Part shown: in pieces, positions 9,552 through 55,850 of the stretch
How the letters are laid out: each line of letters opens with the position of its first letter
Numbering within the stretch: position 1 is the first letter of the stretch
Assembly: GCF_900078545.1 (NCBI RefSeq)
Contig: NZ_FLLS01000002.1
Location: 496,001 to 560,000 of the forward strand
From: Olegusella massiliensis
GTDB lineage: Bacteria; Actinomycetota; Coriobacteriia; Coriobacteriales; Atopobiaceae
Direction of reading: 5' to 3'
Length of the DNA stretch: 64,000 nucleotides
The notes under the pieces: model-generated
Databases searched by the model: none
What the model saw: only the letters and a program-made list of their open reading frames with translations
What the model was told of the DNA's origin: nothing
Program-made: the position numbers and the translations under genes

Positions 9552-9569
9552 AAGAGTAATTCTGCTCTA
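9552..9569. promoter_or_regulatory. 18-bp motif shared with position 55035-55052
   Basis: The sequence AAGAGTAATTCTGCTCTA lies between nhaA and the lipoprotein gene, which diverge. An identical 18-mer occurs between two other divergent genes at 55035. AGAG and CTCT form short inverted arms, as in an operator. No known consensus was recognised. Confidence 0.45.
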
Positions 9570-9673: not shown

Positions 9674-10531
9674 ATGAAGCATAAAGGAATGATCAGTCTG
9701 CTTTTGGGAACCCTGTTGCTCTGCTTTGTGCTAGTCGGCTGCGGTGGGAAAAACTCCTCTGCGGACGCTGCGAGCGCCTTCATTGGTACATGGGATTTAT
9801 ACGAGATTACCGGCGATGATGGCACCAGCCACGAAGACATCAAAAGCATGAACGAGTTTGGTCTTGAAACCTATCTTGAAATAGAAAAAGATGGAAAAGG
9901 CACCTTTAATGTCTTTGGGGAAGAAATTTCCCTTACCTGGAAGGCAAAAAATAGCACACAAATTGAAGTCACCATGGAGTACGACGGAGAAAAGCAAACT
10001 GAGCCTCTTACCCTCAAAGATGGCAAAGTGAGTTTTTCCGTAGAAGGTGAAAAGGCCATGGTCTTTGAAAAGGGCAAAAAGCATGACAGGTCAGACAAGC
10101 CTGCTTCTGGCTCAGAAAAAGGTGGAGCAGCTGCACCTGACAGCTCGAAGGGCGATGATGATGAGAAAAATGTCAAAGAAATCAATAGCGTAGTAGCTGA
10201 TGATGACACCGTAAAAATTGAAGCTATCAAGATGTATGACGATACCTTTGGCGATGCCATCATAGAGTTTAAGGTTACCAACAAAAGCGATAAAAACCTG
10301 GTGATTTCCTGCTCATATGGTAGTTGGTCAGTCGATGGAAAGATGGTTGATCCATCCATGTATGAAAACATTAAAGCAGGCACCTATACCGATGCAGCCC
10401 TTTATTTCACCAAAGATAATCTAGGCGGAGGCACCGAAAAGCTCGTCAATATCGATGGTAAGTTTGAGGTTACCGATGATGACTACAACACCGTTGGTAC
10501 CTATGAGTTTAAGTACGAACAGAAGGGTTAA
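9674..10531 (+). CDS. Secreted lipoprotein of unknown function
   Basis: 285 residues. A lipoprotein signal peptide ends at the lipobox LVGC (Cys about residue 21), so the mature protein is lipid-anchored outside the cell. Two beta-rich parts are separated by a Ser/Gly/Asp linker (about residues 138-165). The first ends in a lipocalin-like strand pattern (GTWDLYEI ... ISLTWKAKN). The second, with TFGDAIIEFKVTNKSDKNL, resembles the Ig-like DUF4352/DUF5067 type of extracellular domain. ATG 9674 follows AAAGGAG; upstream in-frame codons lack a ribosome site. A strong terminator follows. Confidence 0.75.
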   Translation: MKHKGMISLLLGTLLLCFVLVGCGGKNSSADAASAFIGTWDLYEITGDDGTSHEDIKSMNEFGLETYLEIEKDGKGTFNVFGEEISLTWKAKNSTQIEVTMEYDGEKQTEPLTLKDGKVSFSVEGEKAMVFEKGKKHDRSDKPASGSEKGGAAAPDSSKGDDDEKNVKEINSVVADDDTVKIEAIKMYDDTFGDAIIEFKVTNKSDKNLVISCSYGSWSVDGKMVDPSMYENIKAGTYTDAALYFTKDNLGGGTEKLVNIDGKFEVTDDDYNTVGTYEFKYEQKG

Positions 10532-10559
10532 TTAACGGGCCATTTTGCCCTATAGTTGC

Positions 10560-10604
10560 GCGGCGCACATCAGACTCGGTTTTTGGATGTGCGCCGCACT
10601 TTTT
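10560..10604 (+). terminator. Rho-independent terminator after the lipoprotein gene
   Basis: GCGGCGCACATC (10560-10571) and GATGTGCGCCGC (10586-10597) form a perfect 12-bp GC-rich stem with a 14-base loop, followed by ACTTTTTG. The lipoprotein gene therefore appears monocistronic. Confidence 0.9.
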
Positions 10605-10733
10605 GTTCAGCAAGCCGCCTTTTGTTTTGCTTGACTCGCTGCCAGTTCGCCGACACGTTGCTACTCCAGCTAGCGCGAGCGCTTTGTGAAGGTCATACTA
10701 AAGAAGATTTACGAGCACGTAAAAGGAGTTTGC

Positions 10734-12170
10734 ATGCCTAACGAGACTGTCAACTACCATTGCCCTGCATGTGGCGGGTCAATGCGCTACGACGGCGAGC
10801 TTGCCAAACTCCGTTGCGATTTTTGCGACTCAACTTTTACCGTGGCACAAATCGAAGCACTTTATGCGCAACAACAACAACGGGCAGACTCTGCTGCAGA
10901 AGCTACCAATGAACAAGCTGCAGCGGGCACACTCAGTGATTACGAAGTTGCAGGTAGGGTTGCTGGTGAAGGCAAACGCACGGTAGCCGAATCCCTTGCA
11001 GATGCGCGCGAAGTTTCGGCACACGAAGTTGACCCTATCAAGGCCTTTCTTGATCGTGCAAGCTGGAACGAGAGTGAACGAGCAGGGCTGAGAACCTATA
11101 CCTGCTCATCTTGTGGTGCAGCCCTCACGGTTGATGCAAGCCAAGCTGTGGCAGAGTGCCCGTATTGCGGAAGCAGTGCGGTAGTGCCTGGAGCGCTGAC
11201 CGCTGGTGCAAAACCCGAGATGGTCATTCCCTTTAGAGTGAAACATGACGATGCTCAGGCAGCTTTAGCAAGCTACTACAAGGGAAAGAAATTCTTACCT
11301 AAAGCTTTTGCTTCAAATAACCGCATCGCACATATTCAGGGTGTCTACGTTCCCTTTTGGCTGTATGACTCCCACGCTTCGGGGCGCGCAAGCTTTGAGG
11401 CTACCAATACTCACAGCTATATCTCGGGAGATTATCGCGTTACTAAAACTGATGTATACGATGTGAGACGCGCAGGTAGTCTGGCGTTTTCACGAGTACC
11501 CGCCGATAGTTCCTCAAAGATGCCAAATGCGCATATGGACGCTATCGAACCTTTTGATTACGGCGAGCTGACAGACTTCTCAACGGCATATCTCACAGGA
11601 TATTTGGCCGAACGCTATGACATTGAGGCAACTGAGTGTCGGCCCCACGTAGAGCAGCGTATGAAGCACTCCATGCTCGATTCGCTGCAATCAACGGTCA
11701 CAGGCTATGGCAGTGTATGTCTTAAATCTGGTGAAGCACAGGTGAGTTGGAAAGACTTGCACTACGCTCTGCTTCCCGTGTGGCTGCTCCATACACAATG
11801 GCAAGGGGATGACTACCTTTTTGCCATGAACGGCCAAACAGGGCGCTTTATCGGAAATCTACCAGTAGATAAGTTCAAAGTTGCCCTCTGGTTTGTTGGC
11901 ATATTCTTGCTCGCGGCGGCAGCTATATGGGCTATCTGTATATTTTTGCTCGATATGGCTGACGACAGCCTGCTATGGCCAGCGGTTATAGGTGTTGGCG
12001 CAGCTATTGCAGCGGGAATCTGCTGGATGTTTTATGCCGAAATGAAAACCGCGCATGAGCGAAGTGAAGCTGCTGAGTATATCTCGACTCCTCTAGAGCT
12101 CAGCGAGAAGTCGGATCGCTATGTCACCACCCGTGTCACACGTACGCACATTGAACGTTCCAATAATTAG
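10734..12170 (+). CDS. TFIIB-type zinc-ribbon membrane protein (YdjG-like)
   Basis: 478 residues. The N-terminus has a zinc ribbon CPACGGSM ... CDFC, and a second follows near residue 125 (CSSCGAAL ... CPYCGS). A large soluble middle domain ends in two membrane segments (about residues 383-435) and a short cytoplasmic tail. This layout matches Bacillus YdjG and its relatives, often mis-annotated as helicase or PriA because of the ribbon. In Bacillus these sit beside the SPFH protein YdjI and help place it on the membrane; the same neighbour is found here. ATG 10734 has AAAAGGAG upstream. Confidence 0.75.
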   Translation: MPNETVNYHCPACGGSMRYDGELAKLRCDFCDSTFTVAQIEALYAQQQQRADSAAEATNEQAAAGTLSDYEVAGRVAGEGKRTVAESLADAREVSAHEVDPIKAFLDRASWNESERAGLRTYTCSSCGAALTVDASQAVAECPYCGSSAVVPGALTAGAKPEMVIPFRVKHDDAQAALASYYKGKKFLPKAFASNNRIAHIQGVYVPFWLYDSHASGRASFEATNTHSYISGDYRVTKTDVYDVRRAGSLAFSRVPADSSSKMPNAHMDAIEPFDYGELTDFSTAYLTGYLAERYDIEATECRPHVEQRMKHSMLDSLQSTVTGYGSVCLKSGEAQVSWKDLHYALLPVWLLHTQWQGDDYLFAMNGQTGRFIGNLPVDKFKVALWFVGIFLLAAAAIWAICIFLLDMADDSLLWPAVIGVGAAIAAGICWMFYAEMKTAHERSEAAEYISTPLELSEKSDRYVTTRVTRTHIERSNN

Positions 12171-12327
12171 CGTATGACACAAATGGCAGTAAGCTGGGTA
12201 TGCTAAAGGTGTTCCTCATACCCAAAAAACGATGGAAGGACAAGCACCAAACCGCAAGGTCGGGTACTTGGAATGTAAGGGAATCCGAAGCGCTACGGAC
12301 GACGACGGATTAGCGAAAGGGGCCACA

Positions 12328-13575
12328 ATGGGTCTAATTAAGGCAGCAGTAGGAGCAGCGGGCGGCGTCTTAGCTGACAGCTGGAAAGAAATGATTTACT
12401 GCGATTCTTTGCCCGAGAATGTACTTGCCGTCAAGGGTCAAAAACGCACGAGCGGACGTAGCTCTAATGTTCACGGTGAGGAAAACATCATCACCAATGG
12501 CTCACGTATCATCGTTAACGATGGCCAGGCAATGATTATCGTAGACCAGGGAGCTATCGTTGATTTTTGCGGCGATCCTGGCGAGTATACCTACGATCAA
12601 TCCAGCGAGCCGTCCTTCTTCTCTGGTGACCTTGGTGAAAACATCACAAAGATGTTTGAGCAAATCGGCGGACGCTTTGCCTTTGGCGGCGATACTGGCC
12701 ATGACCAGCGTGTGTACTATTTCAACACCAAAGAGATTATTGGCAACAAGTATGGAACCGCATCACCTGTCCCCTTCCGTGTGGTTGACAATAATATCGG
12801 TCTTGATGTTGATATTTCCGTTCGCTGCAATGGTCTGTATAGCTACAAAATTACCAACCCCCTGCTTTTTTATAAGAATGTCTGCGGCAATGTTGAGCAG
12901 CCCTATACGCGCGACCACTTAGATGCACAGCTCAAAAGCGAGCTGCTAACAGCCCTACAGCCTGCCTTTGCAAAGATTTCTGGCATGGGCATCCGCTATA
13001 GCGCAGTTCCTGCACACACCCTCGAACTTGCCGAAGCTCTCAACGAGCAATTAAGTAGCAAGTGGCGCGATTTGCGCGGTATTGAAATTGCAGAGTTTGG
13101 CGTTAATTCAATTTCTGCTTCACCTGAAGACGAGCAGATGATTAAGGATCTGCAGAAGTCTGCTACGATGCGCGATCCTAGTATGCGTGCCGCTGCCTTG
13201 GCGGGTGCTCAGGCCGATGCAATGCGTGCTGCTGCCAGCAATACAGCAGGTGCTATGACCGGCTTTATGGGTATGAATATGGCAGGGATGACTGGTATGG
13301 GTGCTCAGCAAACCTACGCTCAGGCTCCTGGTCAAACGCCAGCAAATCAGTACCAGACCGCAGCAGGCGGTGGCTTTGCGGCACCGACACCCGCACCTAC
13401 AGAGGCACCCGCTGGTAGCTGGACCTGCAGCAACTGTGGTGCTAGCAACACAGGTAAATTCTGTGCTGAATGCGGCACACCCAAACCTGCAGCCTCTGGC
13501 AAGTGGACTTGCCCCAAATGCGGCGCTGCCAACACAGGTAAGTTCTGCTCTGAGTGTGGAAGCCCACGCGCGTAG
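12328..13575 (+). CDS. SPFH-domain protein with C-terminal double zinc ribbon (YdjI-like)
   Basis: 415 residues. The N-terminal two thirds is an SPFH/'virion core protein'-type domain (MGLIKAAVGAAGGVLADSW start, then the IIVNDGQAMIIVDQG strand pair). A Met/Gly/Ala-rich, low-complexity stretch follows (about residues 280-350). Two near-identical zinc ribbons end the protein (WTCSNCGASNTGKFCAECG and WTCPKCGAANTGKFCSECG). It likely oligomerises on the inner membrane face together with the upstream zinc-ribbon membrane protein. ATG 12328 is chosen because AAAGGGG precedes it. A terminator follows at 13691. Confidence 0.8.
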   Translation: MGLIKAAVGAAGGVLADSWKEMIYCDSLPENVLAVKGQKRTSGRSSNVHGEENIITNGSRIIVNDGQAMIIVDQGAIVDFCGDPGEYTYDQSSEPSFFSGDLGENITKMFEQIGGRFAFGGDTGHDQRVYYFNTKEIIGNKYGTASPVPFRVVDNNIGLDVDISVRCNGLYSYKITNPLLFYKNVCGNVEQPYTRDHLDAQLKSELLTALQPAFAKISGMGIRYSAVPAHTLELAEALNEQLSSKWRDLRGIEIAEFGVNSISASPEDEQMIKDLQKSATMRDPSMRAAALAGAQADAMRAAASNTAGAMTGFMGMNMAGMTGMGAQQTYAQAPGQTPANQYQTAAGGGFAAPTPAPTEAPAGSWTCSNCGASNTGKFCAECGTPKPAASGKWTCPKCGAANTGKFCSECGSPRA

Positions 13576-40603: not shown

Positions 40604-40742
40604 AGATGGTTCAAGCTTCGAGCCTTTTTTCAATAGATGGTTCGTTTGTCGAACTAGAGAAAAATCTGACCTGCGCTTTTACACTTGCTTACTTCGAAAC
40701 TCGAACCATCTTTTGTTTGAGGCGCCGAAACTTGAACCATCT
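40604..40742. repeat. Dispersed structured repeat, copy A
   Basis: A nested inverted repeat between convergent dltD-like and yaaA genes. Outer arms: 40604-40624 and 40721-40742 (AGATGGTTCAAG ... CTTGAACCATCT). Inner arms: AGATGGTTCG (40635-40644) and CGAACCATCT (40702-40711). The 77-bp inner unit is nearly identical to 51574-51650, including the loop block GAGAAAAATCTGACCTGCG. The rest of 40548-40853 has no supported gene. It could be a REP/MITE-like element or a two-way terminator. Confidence 0.8.
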
Positions 40743-46749: not shown

Positions 46750-47355
46750 ATGATTGGGCTGGAGGAAAAGATGTTTCCCGTCTACTTTGCCAGCTACTCA
46801 TCCCCTTTGGGCAAAATTTCCCTCGCCGCCAACGCAGAAGGACTCTGTGGAGCATGGCTTGAAAACCAAGCACATTTCGAAGAAAAGCTCGCAATGCGCC
46901 TTGGCATTTCAACGGCAGATTTGCCCCATGAAGACCTCAAAAGAAACGCTGGCATTTTGAGCTCACCGTATATCTCACGTAGCCGCGCATGGCTGGATGC
47001 GTACTTTGCAGGAGAAATACCTACTACCTTCCCTCCTTTTTCTCTTCATGGGACAGCTTTTCAGGAAGAAGTGTGGACGCAGTTAACTCAAATTCCTTAT
47101 GGCAGACGTATCACTTACGGCGCACTTGCACAACAAATAGAAAACCAGCAAAATGACGGGAAGAGAGTTTCTCCTCGAGCCGTTGGCGCAGCAGTTGCAC
47201 GCAACCCTATTTCAATTATTATTCCGTGCCACCGCGTTATAGGTGCAAATGGGAGCCTTACGGGTTATGCAGGCGGCGTTGAGCGCAAACAAAAACTGCT
47301 TGACTTTGAACAAAAAACTATGAAAAATTTGGTACAAAAAGGTATCAAAATATGA
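46750..47355 (+). CDS. ogt: Methylated-DNA--protein-cysteine methyltransferase
   Basis: 201 residues. Repairs O6-alkylguanine by moving the alkyl group to its own cysteine, C160 in IIIPCHRVIGANG. The N-terminal domain and PYGRRITYGALA helix-turn-helix fit Ogt. ATG 46750 has GGAGG 7 bases upstream; ATG 46771, with its own GGAGG, is also possible. It overlaps the Crp/Fnr gene by 4 bases. Confidence 0.92.
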   Translation: MIGLEEKMFPVYFASYSSPLGKISLAANAEGLCGAWLENQAHFEEKLAMRLGISTADLPHEDLKRNAGILSSPYISRSRAWLDAYFAGEIPTTFPPFSLHGTAFQEEVWTQLTQIPYGRRITYGALAQQIENQQNDGKRVSPRAVGAAVARNPISIIIPCHRVIGANGSLTGYAGGVERKQKLLDFEQKTMKNLVQKGIKI

Positions 47356-48131
47356 ATAAAAGCAGGGAAAGCATGGCAGCAAACGACCACGAAAACATCT
47401 CCAGCAGTCCACAGGAAACTACTGTTAGCCCCACCGTCGGCACTAGTGTTGGCCCAAAGAATGCGGACCACATTTTTATTGGTTTTATCCCTTTGTTTGC
47501 GGGGTTATCTGATGATGCCAAGGAAAGCCTTATCTCAGGAGCAATACATAGTTTGCGTTCCAAGGGATCCATCTTGGTACATGAAGGCGACCCTATTAAT
47601 TCCATTATTATTGTTCGCTCGGGACGTATCAAAACTTTTCGTACCGACAGTAACGGTCAGGAATATGTATTGGACGTTCTCCATGATGGGCAGGCTATTT
47701 GGCACGGCGTCTTCATGGAAGAGCAGACCTATCACTACTCTGTAGGCTGCCTTACTGATGTTGATCTCTATTTCATTCGCCGCTCTCATTTTGAAGCGCA
47801 GATCAAAAACAATCCTACGGTAGCCATAGGACTGATACACATGATTGGCGCAGAACTTTTTGAAGCTGAAGAAAAGATTATGATGCTCGGCATACGTGAC
47901 CCTCAACGCAGGCTTGCGGAATATCTTTTGTATCGCGATGAGCGGTGCGTCGGCCCTGAAATTCGTCTTAAGTTACAAGATATTGCGAGCTCTGTTGGAC
48001 TACGGCCCGAAACCGTCTCTCGCACCCTTAGTGCCTTTGAGCGCAAGGGTATGTTGCGTAGGGTAGGACAAGGGAGACTTTTGTTGCTCGATCGTTCTGC
48101 TTTACACGATGTAGCAGTCGGAAGCAACTAA
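47352..48131 (+). CDS. Crp/Fnr-family transcriptional regulator
   Basis: 259 residues. A cyclic-nucleotide-binding-fold sensor (about 45-165) and a winged HTH (LKLQDIASSVGLRPETVSRTLSAFERKGML). The N-terminus has about 38 extra residues. No Fnr-type cysteine cluster is visible, so any oxygen sensing would be indirect. The R-x4-SR recognition pattern is Fnr-like. It overlaps ogt by 4 bases and lies upstream of pflA-pflB, which have an FNR-like box. Confidence 0.9.
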   Translation: MNKSRESMAANDHENISSSPQETTVSPTVGTSVGPKNADHIFIGFIPLFAGLSDDAKESLISGAIHSLRSKGSILVHEGDPINSIIIVRSGRIKTFRTDSNGQEYVLDVLHDGQAIWHGVFMEEQTYHYSVGCLTDVDLYFIRRSHFEAQIKNNPTVAIGLIHMIGAELFEAEEKIMMLGIRDPQRRLAEYLLYRDERCVGPEIRLKLQDIASSVGLRPETVSRTLSAFERKGMLRRVGQGRLLLLDRSALHDVAVGSN

Positions 48132-48381: not shown

Positions 48382-49134
48382 ATGCTGGGAAGAGTTCACT
48401 CAACAGAGTCGTTTGGTTCGGCTGATGGCCCTGGGGTGCGCTATCTTATTTTTCTCCAAGGCTGCTCGATGCGTTGTCGCTACTGTCACAATATTGATAC
48501 CTGGGCGCTCAACCACGGTGAGCTAAAAAGTGCTGATGATCTACTAGATCAGGCCGAACGCTACCGTAACTACTGGGGAGAAGAAGGTGGCATCACGGTA
48601 AGCGGAGGCGAAGCGCTTCTGCAAATCGATTTTTTGCTTGAACTCTTTTCCAAAGCGCATATGCGTGGTATTAACACCTGCCTTGATACATCTCTTGCGA
48701 CTTTTTCACGAAAGGAGCCTTATTTTGAAAAATTCCAAAACCTCATGCAGGTCACTGACCTCATTCTCGCAGACATCAAGCATATCGACCCTGTTGAGCA
48801 CAAGGCCCTTACGGGCAAGAGCAACGAAAACATCCTTGATGCCCTGCGCTACCTCTCCTCTATCAACAAACCCGTCTGGATACGACATGTGCTCGTTCCC
48901 GGCATCACAGATAACGACAACTACCTCAAGCAAACACGAGCTTTTATCAAGACATTAAAGAATGTCAAGCGTATTGAGGTATTGCCTTATCACTGTCTCG
49001 GCACCTTTAAGTGGGACAAACTTGGGATCCCCTATACCTTGGGAGATACCAAGCCGCCTACTGCAGAACGCGTGGCTAACGCAGAGCGCATTCTTCTGGG
49101 CACAGATGAATGCGCTATAAAGCATACATGCTAA
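48382..49134 (+). CDS. pflA: Pyruvate formate-lyase activating enzyme
   Basis: 250 residues. Radical SAM enzyme that makes the glycyl radical of PflB. The [4Fe-4S] motif C28-x3-C32-x2-C35 lies in QGCSMRCRYCHN; SGGEALLQ follows. GAGGAGATGTAACGC precedes the ATG. The order pflA-pflB is reversed from E. coli, and only 12 bases separate the genes. Confidence 0.95.
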   Translation: MLGRVHSTESFGSADGPGVRYLIFLQGCSMRCRYCHNIDTWALNHGELKSADDLLDQAERYRNYWGEEGGITVSGGEALLQIDFLLELFSKAHMRGINTCLDTSLATFSRKEPYFEKFQNLMQVTDLILADIKHIDPVEHKALTGKSNENILDALRYLSSINKPVWIRHVLVPGITDNDNYLKQTRAFIKTLKNVKRIEVLPYHCLGTFKWDKLGIPYTLGDTKPPTAERVANAERILLGTDECAIKHTC

Positions 49135-49146
49135 GGAGGCATAGAA

Positions 49147-51417
49147 ATGCAAGTTCGTGACGAATGGAACGGCTTTACGGGAGGCCACTGGACTGAAGAC
49201 ATCAATGTGCGAGACTTCATCCAGAAAAACTACACCCCTTATGAGGGTGACGAGTCATTTCTCGTAGGCCCCACTGAGGCAACCGACAAGCTCTGGAGCA
49301 AGGTACAGGAGCTTCAGGCCCAGGAACGCGCAAATGGCGGCGTCCTTGATTGCGAAACCGAAATTGTCTCTAGTCTCACTGCCTATGGTCCTGGCTATAT
49401 TGACCCTGATATGAAAGACTTGGAGCGCATTGTCGGCCTTCAGACTGACAAGCCTCTCAAGCGTGCTTTTATGCCTTACGGTGGCATCAAAATGGCCCAG
49501 CAGGCAGCCGAAACCTATGGCTATCACATAAACGATAAGTACGACAAGATTTTTAACGAGTATCACAAGACTCATAACCAAGCCGTCTTTGATGCATATA
49601 CCCCTGAGATGCGCGCCGCACGTCACTCTCATATCGTCACTGGCTTGCCTGATACCTATGGTCGCGGTCGCATTGTTGGCGACTATCGCCGTGTTGCACT
49701 CTATGGCATCGACTTCCTCATCGCCAAAAAACAAGAAGACCTTGCCAACTGCGGTGATCGCACCATGACTGACGCTGTCATTCGCCTGCGTGAGGAAATC
49801 GCCGAGCAAATTCGTGCCCTTAAGGGTATGAAAGAGATGGCCAAGATCTACGGTTATGACATCTCTGCTCCTGCTGCTAATGCACACGAAGCCTTCCAGT
49901 GGCTTTACTTTGGCTACCTTGCTGCTATCAAGACTCAAAACGGTGCAGCCATGTCTGTTGGCCGTATTTCCACCTTCCTTGATATCTATCTTGAACGTGA
50001 CCTTGCCGCAGGGACACTCAGCGAATCTGAAGCCCAGGAACTTGTGGACCACATGGTGCTCAAATTCCGTATGGTCAAGTTTGCCCGCATCCCCTCTTAC
50101 AACGAGCTCTTCTCAGGTGACCCCGTATGGGCAACCCTTGAAATGGCAGGCCTTGGTATAGATGGCCGTCACATGGTAACCAAAAACGACTACCGTTTCC
50201 TGCATACGCTTGAAAATATGGGACCTGCACCCGAGCCCAACTTGACAGTTCTCTATTCACAAAATCTTCCCCAAAGCTTCCGCAAGTACGCTGCCAAGGT
50301 TTCTATCACTACCTCATCGGTTCAGTACGAAAACGATGACCTTATGCGTCCTGTCTGGGGCGATGACTACAGTATCTGCTGCTGCGTGTCTGCCACCGAA
50401 ACTGGCAAAGAAATGCAGTTCTTTGGCGCTCGTGCAAACCTGGCAAAATGTTTGCTCTACGCCATTAACGGCGGTGTCGATGATAAGTTTAAGGACAAGC
50501 AGGGACACAATATGCAGGTTGGCCCTGAGTATGCTCCTATTACGTCTGAATACTTGGACTATGATGAGGTTATGCACAAGTTTGACCTCATGATGGATTG
50601 GCTTGCTGACATTTATGTCAACATCTTGAACCTCATCCAATATATGCACGATAAGTACTATTACGAGGCTTCCGAGATGGCACTCATCGATACCGACGTC
50701 CGTCGTACGTTTGCCACGGGCATTGCGGGCTTCTCACACGTTGTCGACTCGATTTCGGCAATCAAATATGCCAAGGTCAAGTGCCTTCGCGATGAAAATG
50801 GCATTGTCTATGACTTTGAGACTGAAGGTGATTTCCCCCGTTACGGCAACGACGATGACCGCGCAGACGATATCGCGGTATGGCTGCTTAAGATATTCAT
50901 GACCAAAATCAAAAAGCATCACACCTATCGTGATTCTGAGCCGACTACCTCTATTCTTACCATTACCTCAAACGTGGTCTATGGCAAGGCAACAGCTGGC
51001 ATGCCTGACGGTCGCAAGCCCTACACGCCCTTTGCCCCTGGTGCCAACCCTGCATACGGTGCCGAGCAGAACGGTCTGCTTGCCTCACTCAATTCTGTAG
51101 CAAAGCTCCCTTATGAGTACGCACTTGATGGCATCTCTAACACGCAAACTATTAGTCCCAGCGCACTTGGCAATGATCTTGATCAGCGTAAGGCAAACTT
51201 GGTGAGTGTGATGGATGGTTACTTTGCTGCAGGCGCGCATCATCTCAACGTGAACGTCTTTGATACCGACAAGCTCAAGGATGCAATGGAACATCCCGAG
51301 AAACCCGAGTACGCCAACTTCACCATTCGCGTCTCTGGCTATGCAGTTAAATTCATCGACCTCACACGTGAGCAGCAACTTGATGTTATTGCTCGCACCT
51401 GCCACGGTCAGATGTAG
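49147..51417 (+). CDS. pflB: Formate C-acetyltransferase (pyruvate formate-lyase)
   Basis: 756 residues, normal length. Converts pyruvate and CoA to acetyl-CoA and formate in anaerobic fermentation. The catalytic cysteines lie in [17 protein letters not shown] (C411-C413 run; two of them act), and the glycyl-radical residue is G731 in [24 protein letters not shown] precedes the ATG. It is cotranscribed with pflA. Extra cysteine in the CCC run is slightly unusual. Confidence 0.96.
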
Positions 51418-51458
51418 CACCACTCTAATGGAGCAAATCGTTAATTAGAAGTGCTATG

Positions 51459-51529
51459 GCCCGGGCTACTTGTGTCGCTTATGACGCTTGTGGCCCGGGC
51501 TATTTATGGCGCGTTTATAGCCCGGGCTA
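51459..51529. repeat. Three copies of GCCCGGGCTA after pflB
   Basis: GCCCGGGCTA occurs at 51459-51468, 51493-51502 and 51520-51529, each with a self-complementary GCCCGGGC core followed by TAC/TATT. Spacing is 34 and 27 bases. They lie between pflB and repeat copy B, in a 294-base gap between convergent genes. Confidence 0.8.
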
Positions 51530-51534
51530 CTAAA

Positions 51535-51650
51535 TTTCAACAGATGGTTCATTTCTCGATAGCTTATTTCGACAGATGGTTCGTTTCTCGAGTTAGAGAA
51601 AAATCTGACCTGCGGTTTTATGACTTGCAACTTCGAAACTCGAACCATCT
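51535..51650. repeat. Dispersed structured repeat, copy B
   Basis: Two near-identical 25-bp units (51535-51559 and 51567-51591, TTTCRACAGATGGTTCR...) precede the same 77-bp core as copy A: arms AGATGGTTCG (51574-51583) and CGAACCATCT (51641-51650) with loop GAGAAAAATCTGACCTGCG. It also lies between convergent genes (pflB and the LuxR regulator). Confidence 0.8.
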
Positions 51651-51711: not shown

Positions 51712-52335
51712 TTATACTCCGCTGATTACGGCACCAGAATCCACTGCAGCAACAGCTAGCATTGTTCGCGTAGCAAAACCCGTTTTGTTTAACATGCTTT
51801 GAATGTTGTTGCCCACGGTACGATCAGATAACCCAAGACGTGATGCGATCTTGGCATTGGTTGCACCTGTTGTCAGTTCGCGAAGGATGCGCACTTCCAA
51901 CGGCGTAAAGTCGCTTACCAAAGCCTCACCCAATTGGACCTGAGGTACGGAAGCAGGAAAAACTCGCTCGCCTGACATGGTGCGCTGTATAAGCTCAACA
52001 AGCGATATGTCACCTGCAGTCTTATACCAAAATCCATCCACACCGGCGCTTTTTGCACGCGCAATAAAGTCCACCTCAGGCTGGGATGTTACTACTAAGA
52101 CCTTTATGTGAGGCATGCTTCTCTTGAGCTTTGATGCGGCCTCGAGTCCGCTTGCACGACCTGCCGTCACCACGTCCATGAGAACTAAATCCACGGAATG
52201 ACCTAGGCACCACGCCTCAGCAAGTGCCGCGCTGGCGAGTGTTCCCGACAGCTCACACCCCTTCGATTCCTGCACAATAAGCTCAAAGAGACGAGCAGCA
52301 ATGGGATCGTCTTCTACTATCAACACCTTATACAT
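51712..52335 (-). CDS. NarL/LuxR-family response regulator
   Basis: 207 residues. Receiver domain with D54 as phosphoacceptor and ED at 8-9; C-terminal LuxR HTH (FTPLEVRILRELTTGATNAKIASRLGLSDRTVGNNIQSML in pieces). ATG 52335 has GAGGCGG upstream and overlaps the kinase stop by 8 bases. It is the output of the three-gene signalling module. Confidence 0.92.
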   Translation of the reverse strand: MYKVLIVEDDPIAARLFELIVQESKGCELSGTLASAALAEAWCLGHSVDLVLMDVVTAGRASGLEAASKLKRSMPHIKVLVVTSQPEVDFIARAKSAGVDGFWYKTAGDISLVELIQRTMSGERVFPASVPQVQLGEALVSDFTPLEVRILRELTTGATNAKIASRLGLSDRTVGNNIQSMLNKTGFATRTMLAVAAVDSGAVISGV

Positions 52336-53341
52336 TGTCCGCCTCGCCTTCATCTCTTTGTGGCAACAATACCAGCAACTTAAACTGAGGCCATGTCTCA
52401 ATCTGCATTACTCCTCCTGCAGATTCTATTTTTTTGCGCAGTGCAGCAAGTCCACCGCCTTCAACTATAGGTCCCTTTGGCAGCTCACCGTTGTTAGTAA
52501 GCTCACAAGACCAGCCATGGCTCAGACGCTTGCCCTCAATAAAAAGCTCGTCACCACGTGCATGCCGCATGAGGTTTGTCAGTGCCTCCGCTCCCGCTGC
52601 CAACAGTAGATTGGCTGCCTCACCCTGTTGTGGCAGCTCTCCCAATGTCTGCAGCTTTATACCTACCGACTGAGCCGTATCACGTAACTGCTGCAAAAGG
52701 TCAGTTTCTTCAGGTGCTTCTCGTCCCTTTTCAGACAAGATAAGCTCAGCACTTAGCCGCCAACGGTTCCAAATGCCTTCAAGTGTTGCCGAAGTGGAAT
52801 CCTCATTGCGCAGTAGTGCATGGGTCTCTGCTAGCAAACGCCCCAACTCATCATGTACCGCGGCTTTGCGATCAAGAAGCTCGCGTTCCACCATCAGGGA
52901 TTCAGCCTCCTGCGCATAGGCATGAAGCTGCTGTCCACGCTTTGCAAGCAAGACGTTTTTCTTTTTGAGCTCGCGATTAAGCAGGATAAGTTCGGTGACC
53001 TTGTGCGCAGTAATTTCTATAGCTTCCTCACCGCGATAGGGAATGTAAGCGTGGTGCAGGTGCCAATACTGTCCTCGCAACTCCACAATAACATCTTCGG
53101 TATAAAGATTTGCCAGCTGAGCATCTCCAGACAATTCTCCCGCTCGCAGCATCTCCCAAAAAAGCTTTGCATTATCAAGCGGAGCACCAAAAAACTCATT
53201 GCAAAGCTTATCCATACATACATTAACCAGGATGATTAAGCCGTTTTTTTGGGCGAAGACTACACCACTGGGCATCGTATCGATGCCTTCTTTTATCGCA
53301 GTTGCGGATATCCTAATTTTTAATGGGGACAAGATCGACAC
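52328..53341 (-). CDS. Soluble histidine kinase with PAS-like sensor domain
   Basis: 337 residues and no membrane segment. A PAS-like N-terminus (about 20-120), a coiled-coil, then the histidine H163 in KAAVHDELGRLL. The ATPase domain has N-box AEALTNLMRHARGD and the G-rich GGGLAALRKKI. The D of the G1 box is replaced (LTNNGEL). GTG 53341 is chosen: GGGGAGG lies 8 bases upstream and the start overlaps the upstream stop. Its partner is the LuxR regulator. Confidence 0.82.
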   Translation of the reverse strand: MSILSPLKIRISATAIKEGIDTMPSGVVFAQKNGLIILVNVCMDKLCNEFFGAPLDNAKLFWEMLRAGELSGDAQLANLYTEDVIVELRGQYWHLHHAYIPYRGEEAIEITAHKVTELILLNRELKKKNVLLAKRGQQLHAYAQEAESLMVERELLDRKAAVHDELGRLLAETHALLRNEDSTSATLEGIWNRWRLSAELILSEKGREAPEETDLLQQLRDTAQSVGIKLQTLGELPQQGEAANLLLAAGAEALTNLMRHARGDELFIEGKRLSHGWSCELTNNGELPKGPIVEGGGLAALRKKIESAGGVMQIETWPQFKLLVLLPQRDEGEADNV

Positions 53342-54981
53342 TACAAACACCTCCCCAGTGGCATGGTGAGCACAACGCACCACAAGTGTCCATCAAGTTG
53401 GGTTTGTACCTTTGCACCCAGACGCTCTGCTCGCCTGCGCGTGCGCACAATACCGTCCGCAGCAAACGCATCTTCGGCACATTCCAACTGTAGATTTAAC
53501 ACTAAGCAATCCGCTTCTACTGCAAGATTTACCAGCAATGCTGAAAGGGTCGGATAAGCCCATTCAACGAGCTCTTCAAAAAAGTCATAAGCTAGCTCGA
53601 GTTTTTGCAAGGAAGCCTCTGCCTCACCTGAGTTCAACACCGTAGCGCGCCTGCCCGCTTCACTCAAATGGTCACATGATTCCCGCAGACACCAAAAAAG
53701 CTCACGAGTGCTTGCCTGAGAATGCTGGCCTTCGATAATGATGAGATTGCAACGACGTTTGATGTAACAACCCACCACACACAGCTGCGCAAGGAGTTCG
53801 GGACGCCTGTCTACAAGCACCTCTCCTTCGTCAACTAAATGGTGAATCAGGTTAAATTTATCCCCACAATCATGCTTAATACGGCTGAAAAGCTTTGCGC
53901 GCACATCAAGCTCTGCTCGTCTGCGTCTGATATCAACGCGGGCCTGAGCTAGTTCTGCGTCTTCCATGAGCTCAGTATTCTGCTCTTCTAATTGGCGTCG
54001 AGCTTCATATTCCAGGCTATTATCCTCGACCCAACAAAAACTGCCCTCTGACACAGGAATGCTGTGCACTGATTTACCGATAGAAGCGCTCTGCTCCCAG
54101 GTAATGGGCGCATTTTTAGAAGCAGCTAACATCTGACCTTCCTCGTCAAGCAAAGCTGCCTGGATCGAAGATGCTTCAAATAACTCTTGGTAATTGCTGT
54201 TAGTACGAATGAGCCCTGCTGACATCAAGCATTCATACTCAAACATCACCAGCAAACAATAAAAACCGGTCATATCTAGATAGTCACGCAGCTGATATAA
54301 AATCCCATAAATAATGCCCATGGCAAGCGGAATTAATAGTGCTACCAGCCAATTTCGACTGTAGGGAACATGGCTGCGACGAATGATGATAGCTATGGTA
54401 GCGACGGCACATGCAATAATAAAAGCTAGTACGATATAGCGAAGCGGACCATACGTGTAGCCGTGTCTATTCCAAGAGGCAGAATCTGAAAAACAAAACA
54501 TCAGCTGATGTGCGTCATTAGAAAACACGCCAAACGAGAGTAGTACTCCAACGCCAAGCAGTACTCCATGCTGCCAGGTGGGATGCCAAGCCATAGGCTT
54601 GTTGATGGAAACCGCACAGACCACGCTTAAGGCTGGCATTAAACAAATAGGAAAATAGAAGGCATACCACAGGTAGCGAATGATTGTCGTATCTTCTACA
54701 TAATGCCATTTGACTATACGTAATATCATCCAAAGCAACATCAGTGCAGCTACACCTAAGAGCAGATAACGTGTCCATCGCTGAACGATATTGTTCACGC
54801 GAAAAAAGCTCCAACCCAAAAGCACAAAAATCAAATAGACGTCATATACAAGTCCTGGTGAGGGCCCAAAGAACCATAAGTAACTGCCAAAAAATCTCCG
54901 TAGAAAAAGCCAGATAATAAATGCAGATAAAAGCAGCGCTGGTGCACTATAAGCCTGCAATTTTCTCAGCGCCGTCTGCAT
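53341..54981 (-). CDS. 7TM-type membrane sensor with degenerate kinase-like domain
   Basis: 546 residues. Seven to eight membrane segments (about 12-255), then a PAS-like part, a coiled-coil (ARRQLEEQNTELMEDAELAQ) and an H-box-like RIKHDCGDKFNL (H370). No clear N-box or G-box is found, so ATP binding is doubtful. It lies directly upstream of the soluble kinase. It probably senses a signal at the membrane and passes it to that kinase. Confidence 0.72.
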   Translation of the reverse strand: MQTALRKLQAYSAPALLLSAFIIWLFLRRFFGSYLWFFGPSPGLVYDVYLIFVLLGWSFFRVNNIVQRWTRYLLLGVAALMLLWMILRIVKWHYVEDTTIIRYLWYAFYFPICLMPALSVVCAVSINKPMAWHPTWQHGVLLGVGVLLSFGVFSNDAHQLMFCFSDSASWNRHGYTYGPLRYIVLAFIIACAVATIAIIIRRSHVPYSRNWLVALLIPLAMGIIYGILYQLRDYLDMTGFYCLLVMFEYECLMSAGLIRTNSNYQELFEASSIQAALLDEEGQMLAASKNAPITWEQSASIGKSVHSIPVSEGSFCWVEDNSLEYEARRQLEEQNTELMEDAELAQARVDIRRRRAELDVRAKLFSRIKHDCGDKFNLIHHLVDEGEVLVDRRPELLAQLCVVGCYIKRRCNLIIIEGQHSQASTRELFWCLRESCDHLSEAGRRATVLNSGEAEASLQKLELAYDFFEELVEWAYPTLSALLVNLAVEADCLVLNLQLECAEDAFAADGIVRTRRRAERLGAKVQTQLDGHLWCVVLTMPLGRCL

Positions 54982-55034: not shown

Positions 55035-55052
55035 AAGAGTAATTCTGCTCTA
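55035..55052. promoter_or_regulatory. 18-bp motif shared with position 9552-9569
   Basis: AAGAGTAATTCTGCTCTA is identical to the copy at 9552. It lies between the divergent 7TM sensor and DUF4428 genes, 66 bases before the latter's start. Both copies sit in divergent promoter regions. Confidence 0.45.
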
Positions 55053-55118: not shown

Positions 55119-55850
55119 ATGGGCCTGTTTGATCGCTTCAAAAAGAGCAACTGCGCAGTCTGTGGCAAAGAGGTCGGTGCTTTGGGCAAGCGCAAGATAG
55201 ACGATGGCTACATCTGCAAGGAATGTGCCAATAAACTCTCCCCCTTCTATCTGGGTCGCAAGAAGTCTTCCGTGGAAGACATCAAAGCGCAACTAGAATA
55301 TCGCGAGGCAAATAAAGCCGAAGTTGCAGCATTCCAGGCAAATCGCACGCTTGGCTTGGATGAAAAGGTCATGATTGATAGCGTTAAGGGCAACTTTGTT
55401 GTGGTACGCCAAGGCCGCAATTGGAAGGAAACTAACCCAGACGTCATCCCCTTAGCGCAGGTCACAGGTGCACAGGTGGATTTTGACGAAGAGCGTGATG
55501 AAGAAACCTACACGGACAAAGACGGCAACACCAAGCGTTATGTACCTCCTCGCTACACGTATTCATATACATCAAAGGTTGTGGTAAGTGTCAATAATCC
55601 TTGGTTTGATGGCTTTACCATTGATGTATCAAGTGGAAGCACTTCAATGCCGCACTCCTTGGAATCCGAGCAGGCGCGTACAACAGCGCAGGAAATTTGT
55701 GAAGCTCTTACTACCGAGCGCGAGCGTATTTACGAATCCATCGAAGCAGATCGCGCACCAAAGACGGCAATGACCTGTCCTCACTGTGGCGCCACAACAA
55801 CACCCGATGCCTCAGGCTGCTGCGAATTCTGCGGTGGTGCGATGACGTAG
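55119..55850 (+). CDS. DUF4428-domain zinc-ribbon protein
   Basis: 243 residues. The N-terminal DUF4428 ribbon has CAVCGKEVG ... CKEC; the C-terminus has another (CPHCGATT ... CEFCGG). The middle has a PH-like, beta-rich stretch (KGNFVVVRQGRNWKE). Function unknown. ATG 55119 follows GAAGGGAGAAACT. In architecture it belongs with the zinc-ribbon proteins at 10734 and 12328. Confidence 0.8.
   Translation: MGLFDRFKKSNCAVCGKEVGALGKRKIDDGYICKECANKLSPFYLGRKKSSVEDIKAQLEYREANKAEVAAFQANRTLGLDEKVMIDSVKGNFVVVRQGRNWKETNPDVIPLAQVTGAQVDFDEERDEETYTDKDGNTKRYVPPRYTYSYTSKVVVSVNNPWFDGFTIDVSSGSTSMPHSLESEQARTTAQEICEALTTERERIYESIEADRAPKTAMTCPHCGATTTPDASGCCEFCGGAMT

Follow-up and report, generated by a model that had tools for sequence, protein, structure and literature searches.

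A predicted three-component system of Coriobacteriales that pairs a 7TM pseudokinase with a separate HPK7 kinase, and its likely envelope targets

Gene organization of the locus

The window (the whole 64,000-nucleotide stretch of Olegusella massiliensis DNA analyzed here) encoded a 7TM sensor, a histidine kinase and a response regulator in three overlapping genes on the reverse strand (Table 1). The GTG start of the kinase gene shared the sequence TAGTG with the sensor stop, and the regulator gene overlapped the kinase stop by 8 bp, as described for these tightly coupled genes in the first-pass annotation. Genes for a radical-SAM activase and a 756-aa pyruvate formate-lyase-like protein (48382-51417) lay convergent with the module and were preceded by a gene for a Crp/Fnr-type regulator (47352-48131), these names being sequence judgements only. 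Three TGGCCCGGGCTA-type repeat copies (51457-51591) were located between the pflB-like gene and the 3' end of the regulator gene, followed by two 26-nt repeats (ATTTC.ACAGATGGTTC.TTTCTCGA) of which a partial copy occurred in inverted orientation at 51633; position 40632 carried a related copy.

Table 1. Positions of the module genes, sensor regions, predicted operators and predicted target genes in the window
Feature	Positions	Strand	Remarks
Response regulator, REC and LuxR/NarL HTH	51712..52335	-	207 aa; D54
Soluble PAS-HPK7 histidine kinase	52328..53341	-	337 aa; GTG start; phospho-acceptor H163; N-box N256
7TM sensor, predicted pseudokinase	53341..54981	-	546 aa; HisKA_7TM, PAS-like, DHp-like and CA-like without ATP site
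Sensor residues 12-254, eight membrane helices	54220..54948	-	hydropathy and AF2 model
Sensor residues 261-320, small PAS-like domain	54022..54201	-	AF2 secondary structure; hhalign to kinase PAS region
Sensor residues 322-419, coiled coil and DHp-like helices	53725..54018	-	AF2 model
Sensor residues 422-541, CA-like fold, ATP lid of ~6 residues	53359..53718	-	AF2 model, hhalign, Foldseek
Predicted operator, 7-2-7 inverted repeat	55035..55052	.	divergent region between sensor and DUF4428 genes
Second predicted operator copy, identical over 18 bp	9552..9569	.	~105 bp before likely lipoprotein start
DUF4428/zinc-ribbon protein	55119..55850	+	predicted regulon member; conserved neighbour of module
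Lipocalin-like lipoprotein	9674..10531	+	likely start ATG 9674 (ORF from 9620); predicted regulon member
YdjG-like double zinc-ribbon membrane protein	10686..12170	+	predicted regulon member
SPFH/Band_7_1 (YdjI-like) protein, C-terminal zinc ribbons	12232..13575	+	likely start 12328; predicted regulon member

Domain architecture of the 7TM sensor

The sensor scored as HisKA_7TM (PF16927; E 4.7e-9, 36.9 bits against a gathering score of 28.6), the only domain that Pfam returned for the sensor family; no LiaF, Toastrack or PspC domain was found. The AlphaFold model (pLDDT 83.6) displayed eight membrane helices, in agreement with hydropathy and with the seven to eight segments first annotated, then a PAS-like domain, an extended coiled coil that included a DHp-like hairpin, and a complete CA-like sandwich in which the ATP-lid region spanned about six residues. 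In a profile comparison (hhalign; probability 97%, E 1e-11), sensor residues 254-546 matched the kinase over its entire PAS-DHp-CA part and, on this match, the cytoplasmic half of the sensor is a degenerate copy of the architecture of its partner. The N-box, G-boxes and ATP lid were gone, F468 and V472 occupying the N-box E and N positions in the alignment with the kinase.

No HATPase match was obtained with Pfam in the window sensor, and none was recognizable in any of 36 sensors, against 27 of 37 partner kinases. As controls, two intact 7TM kinases from Coriobacteriales scored HATPase at 5e-26 (L094) and 1e-20 (L095). These HisKA_7TM kinases (L094 4109-7195 and L095 5796-7595), one of them a hybrid with a receiver domain, had no soluble partner nearby and are useful controls for the split. 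Foldseek matches of the sensor model were histidine kinases, including DesK and ChpT, with low query-normalised TM-scores because only part of the chain aligned. Searched directly against the PDB, the sensor gave no match at E<=1, and the profile of its family no meaningful one; a scan against NCBIfam models returned none at E<=1.

The H-box-like KHDC noted in the first-pass annotation was present at residues 369-372 (H370 codon 53874-53872), but the histidine turned out to be confined to the genus rather than typical of the family: it occurred only in the window species (KHD) and its sister species (EHD), all other sensors having a non-histidine residue there. In one sensor subclade (L062, L063, L065, L075) the CA domain was missing and the protein ended after the DHp helices. 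Seven of the nine residues invariant in the sensor family lay in or beside the 7TM domain (W57, W105, Y106, N155, H158, F162, E250) and none in the CA domain; as read from these residues, the constraint on the family is on the sensing part.

By sequence and modelled fold, the 7TM sensor is a catalytically dead pseudokinase that retained the histidine-kinase fold and lost the catalytic residues. The earlier suggestions that it has no clear ATP-binding motifs and may have lost kinase activity are supported: an ATP-binding domain was sought and not found, and structure prediction of the C-terminus, which had been proposed as a check, gave a CA-like fold without an ATP site.

The partner kinase and the response regulator

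The kinase displayed the features of HPK7 (DesK/NarL-type) enzymes, with an H-box HD (H163), an N-box (E252/N256), G-boxes (G285, G295-297) and a LuxR-type partner. The invariants of its family included H163, G285 and G297. Alone, the kinase gave no Pfam match; its CA domain matched those of DesK, DevS and DosT, and a profile built with 37 relatives matched DesK at 8e-19. No convincing TM segment was found in the window kinase, and one weak hydrophobic peak belonged to an over-extended 351-aa frame starting inside the sensor gene. The first description of a soluble protein with its own H-box and ATPase therefore stands.

Most kinase relatives harbored about five N-terminal TM segments (predicted range 1-6) and some had one or three, while kinases without TM segments were those of the window species, its sister, G242 and G284. 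The kinase tree separated a clade with about five TM segments from one with zero to three; it is unrooted, so that loss of the TM part in the kinase lineage is likely, short of proof. Many kinase relatives carry a five-TM domain of their own, and in these the sensor may be one input among others. In the window lineage the kinase lacks a membrane part altogether, by which sensing and catalysis would be fully separated.

A heteromeric kinase could also be imagined, in which the soluble kinase phosphorylates H370 of the sensor in trans and the sensor serves as a ChpT-like phospho-carrier too. The KHD/EHD context of H370 in two species of the genus and the resemblance of the CA-like fold without ATP site to ChpT in the fold search agree with such a role; the histidine is missing from nearly all other sensors and that of the kinase, H163, is invariant, and we regard a phospho-carrier sensor as very unlikely. 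The pseudokinase reading of the sensor is kept in what follows.

The regulator harbored REC (1.8e-15) and GerE/LuxR (2.8e-9) domains in Pfam, with D54, T83 and K105 present, confirming the LuxR-type regulator annotated as the third protein.

Conservation across Coriobacteriales

A scan of genome contigs recovered a single relative, in Atopobium sp. oral taxon 810, after which order-wide searches of 301 Coriobacteriales genomes were used. Sensor and kinase were both found in 69 genomes, the sensor alone in 3, the kinase alone in 4 and neither in 225, counts that ignore phylogeny and in which many genomes belong to one genus. All sensor-only cases were at contig edges; kinase-only genomes had a diverged sensor next door (G006, G182, G264) or a frameshifted one (G255). 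Orphan sensors and kinases were thus dismissed. Separately, sensor frames were interrupted or shortened in three genomes (L054, L086, L087), being pseudogenes or assembly errors. Among 347 sampled Actinomycetota genomes, full-length sensors were found in Coriobacteriales only, with partial 7TM matches elsewhere.

Spacing was 20 bp or less between sensor and kinase genes at 45 of 50 loci, and between kinase and regulator genes at 38 of 43. Pairwise distances of sensor and kinase correlated with r 0.975, the highest of the pairs tested (others 0.87-0.91), a value to which shared ancestry contributes. The conservation search in Coriobacteriia that had been suggested at the outset yielded no true orphan, and by sequence the sensor-kinase-regulator trio is conserved across the order. 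Neither of the two results that the first-pass annotation had named as arguing against a split module, a fully formed ATP-binding domain in the 7TM protein or missing co-conservation, was obtained.

These results bear on whether the locus could be an ordinary kinase and regulator pair lying beside a decaying 7TM histidine kinase without a role. In favour of such a pair, the kinase is complete and most of its relatives have a TM domain of their own. The sensor was nevertheless kept across the order with open frames, tight coupling and invariant 7TM residues, its distances follow those of the kinase most closely, and the operon of the window species has no other membrane input; a sensor without a role is highly improbable, and we retain it as a probable partner of the kinase.

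Predicted target genes

The lipoprotein, YdjG-like and SPFH genes formed an operon (9674-13575) inside the window, 38 kb from the module. The SPFH protein matched Band_7_1 at 1e-19, the YdjG-like protein displayed sub-threshold zinc-ribbon matches only, and the window lipoprotein, without any Pfam match, was assigned to a lipocalin-like family through its relatives. The same families recurred as neighbours of the module at 56 loci (DUF4428 at 31, the window gene included, SPFH/Band_7_1 at 31, lipocalin-like lipoprotein at 33 and YdjG-like at 10, counts that rest on a codon-usage gene caller). Across the 301 genomes, phylogeny ignored, 63 had both DUF4428 and the module, 13 the module only, 10 DUF4428 only and 215 neither. 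The SPFH gene was present without the module in 30 genomes, so other regulators can run SPFH genes.

PspA/IM30 (PF04012) was absent from the window genome and present in 9 of 14 controls. A true Psp (phage-shock) system was rejected on this ground, and the absence of PspA leaves the YdjG/YdjI-like partners as the only tie to the phage-shock response.

A predicted operator common to the module and the distant operon

The sequence AAGAGTAATTCTGCTCTA occurred exactly twice in the window, 45 kb apart, against 0.06 expected matches (up to 3 mismatches). Its two inverted heptamers are separated by a 2-bp spacer (AGAGTAA-TT-CTGCTCT in the window genome); a 7-2-7 inverted repeat is the layout of NarL operators. 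No sigma-70-like promoter was found at either window operator. When up to 2 mismatches were allowed, one further site was found in the genome, before the gene of a 559-aa double zinc-ribbon membrane protein (L116 2398-4077; G000:C2, ~1.147 Mb); the sister species had the same three sites, this one included (L117). The three genomic near-matches and their sister-species counterparts all preceded zinc-ribbon or envelope genes, and a congener without the module had no site (<=2 mismatches). In G242, GGAGTAATTTTACTCT was found before the DUF4428 gene and AGAGTCGTTCTACTCT before its lipoprotein gene.

In other genera the site read TGGGACA-N2-TGTCCCA, and 667 kb of loci contained six near-matches, each of them before a module or regulon gene. 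Exact matches in G166 (probably Collinsella) preceded a DUF4428-YdjG-SPFH-lipoprotein operon, two tandem lipoproteins and a YkuD L,D-transpeptidase gene (L145 3904-5359 and L146 2066-3808); the last two suggest a wider envelope regulon in this genome. Over ten whole genomes, a relaxed operator pattern was clearly above the reversed control in G204, G101, G166, G079 and G191 and not in the others. In several genera the operator was weak or not clearly discernible. A de novo 7-2-7 search by group recovered, in one group, a related site (TTGGTCG/TTGGCCG) between the divergent sensor and SPFH genes, and coding or GC-rich noise only in others. Two motif matches within SPFH coding sequence were discarded.

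Where the sites were of the AGAGTAA type, the regulator had RTVGNN as its recognition helix; in lineages with TGGGACA sites the helix was GTVKRR/H. This joint change of helix and operator between lineages argues that the regulator of the module reads the predicted site. New here are the likely target genes of the module, proposed through the operator common to the module and the distant operon; judged from this common DNA site, the module probably switches on membrane-protection genes.

Proposed mechanism

We consider it fairly probable that the locus encodes a three-component envelope-stress system in which the 7TM pseudokinase gates a separate HPK7 kinase. The sequence observations behind this reading are that catalytic motifs are lost from the sensor and kept in the kinase, that the genes are co-conserved and coupled in an operon, that an operator is shared and that the target genes are conserved. 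The 7TM domain of the pseudokinase would sense a membrane or envelope signal, and the sensor would pair with the kinase through the coiled-coil/DHp region and set its activity, in line with the first suggestion that it may drive the soluble kinase. The kinase would then phosphorylate the LuxR-type regulator, which is predicted to bind the NarL-like inverted repeat and, in net effect, to activate the DUF4428 gene, the lipoprotein-YdjG-like-SPFH operon and the gene of another zinc-ribbon membrane protein.

The same parts could work with the opposite sign, the pseudokinase keeping the kinase off or in a phosphatase state until stress releases it, in a LiaF-like manner. LiaF-type accessory proteins are inhibitory (PMC3543457), and the sequence features are compatible with either sign of the sensor effect. 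RocA, the nearest precedent in mechanism, enhances the output of its kinase (PMC7028121); activation is preferred for this precedent only, and a sensor that inhibits is judged unlikely.

For the order as a whole, we lean towards an operon-encoded class of systems with two paralogous histidine-kinase chains, of which one was reduced to a membrane sensor only and the other serves as the kinase, driving a PspA-independent SPFH/zinc-ribbon membrane-protection response through lineage-specific operators. Only a few isolated examples of pseudo-histidine kinases are known; here a conserved operon of gut and oral Coriobacteriales splits sensor and kinase between two paralogous proteins. It allows different stages of reduction to be compared directly, with the histidine absent, the ATP site absent or the CA domain missing in sensors, and 5, 3, 1 or 0 TM segments in kinases. 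If the proposal is true, the module would be the first regulator of SPFH/YdjG-type membrane-protection genes in the lineage, in this case in a genome without PspA.

Comparison with known systems

By analogy, RocA-CovS is the closest mechanistic precedent. In group A Streptococcus, the multi-TM pseudokinase RocA acts on CovS, a membrane-bound kinase to which it is accessory (PMC7028121). The first-pass annotation knew no named system with such a split, a statement that RocA-CovS qualifies, the arrangement here being an operon with a soluble kinase. Like RocA, the sensor is multi-TM with DHp-like and CA-like domains, predicted to be without kinase activity, beside a separate kinase. A RocA without its CA domain still works, as cited in PMC7028121, which parallels the CA-less sensors of one subclade; the putative phospho-histidine of RocA is dispensable (PMC7028121). 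Unlike in RocA-CovRS, a single operon encodes the sensor, a soluble kinase and a LuxR-type regulator, the module occurs across the order, and no sequence relation between RocA and the sensor was seen by NCBIfam matching alone.

LiaFSR, VraTSR and EsrISR of C. glutamicum likewise combine a membrane accessory protein, a kinase and a regulator with envelope-stress targets (PMC9239133, PMC11237479, PMC9380581). Unlike in these systems, the accessory protein here is a predicted pseudokinase derived from a histidine kinase, and the window kinase has no TM segment.

The pspA-ydjGHI operon of B. subtilis is an envelope-stress operon (PMC8581546, PMC11237479) controlled by SigW (PMC8581546). The effectors proposed here resemble its products in comprising YdjG-like zinc-ribbon and YdjI-like SPFH/zinc-ribbon proteins (PMC8581546), a likeness of architecture as described in PMC8581546 and PMC11237479 rather than of compared sequences. 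In the window genome PspA is absent and YdjH was not identified; the linkage is instead to a DUF4428 protein and to lipoproteins.

C. glutamicum also offers a precedent for heterodimers of dead and active kinases, a kinase-dead ChrS that pairs with active HrrS and changes its output (PMC9491836); this case traces to a laboratory frameshift between paralogous systems, unlike the conserved operon described here.

The kinase DHp-CA part and the LuxR-type regulator resemble those of DesK-DesR and other HPK7 systems, DesK providing the nearest solved structures, and the five-TM kinase relatives resemble DesK in layout. Unlike DesK, the window kinase has no TM sensor of its own and would instead pair with a 7TM pseudokinase.
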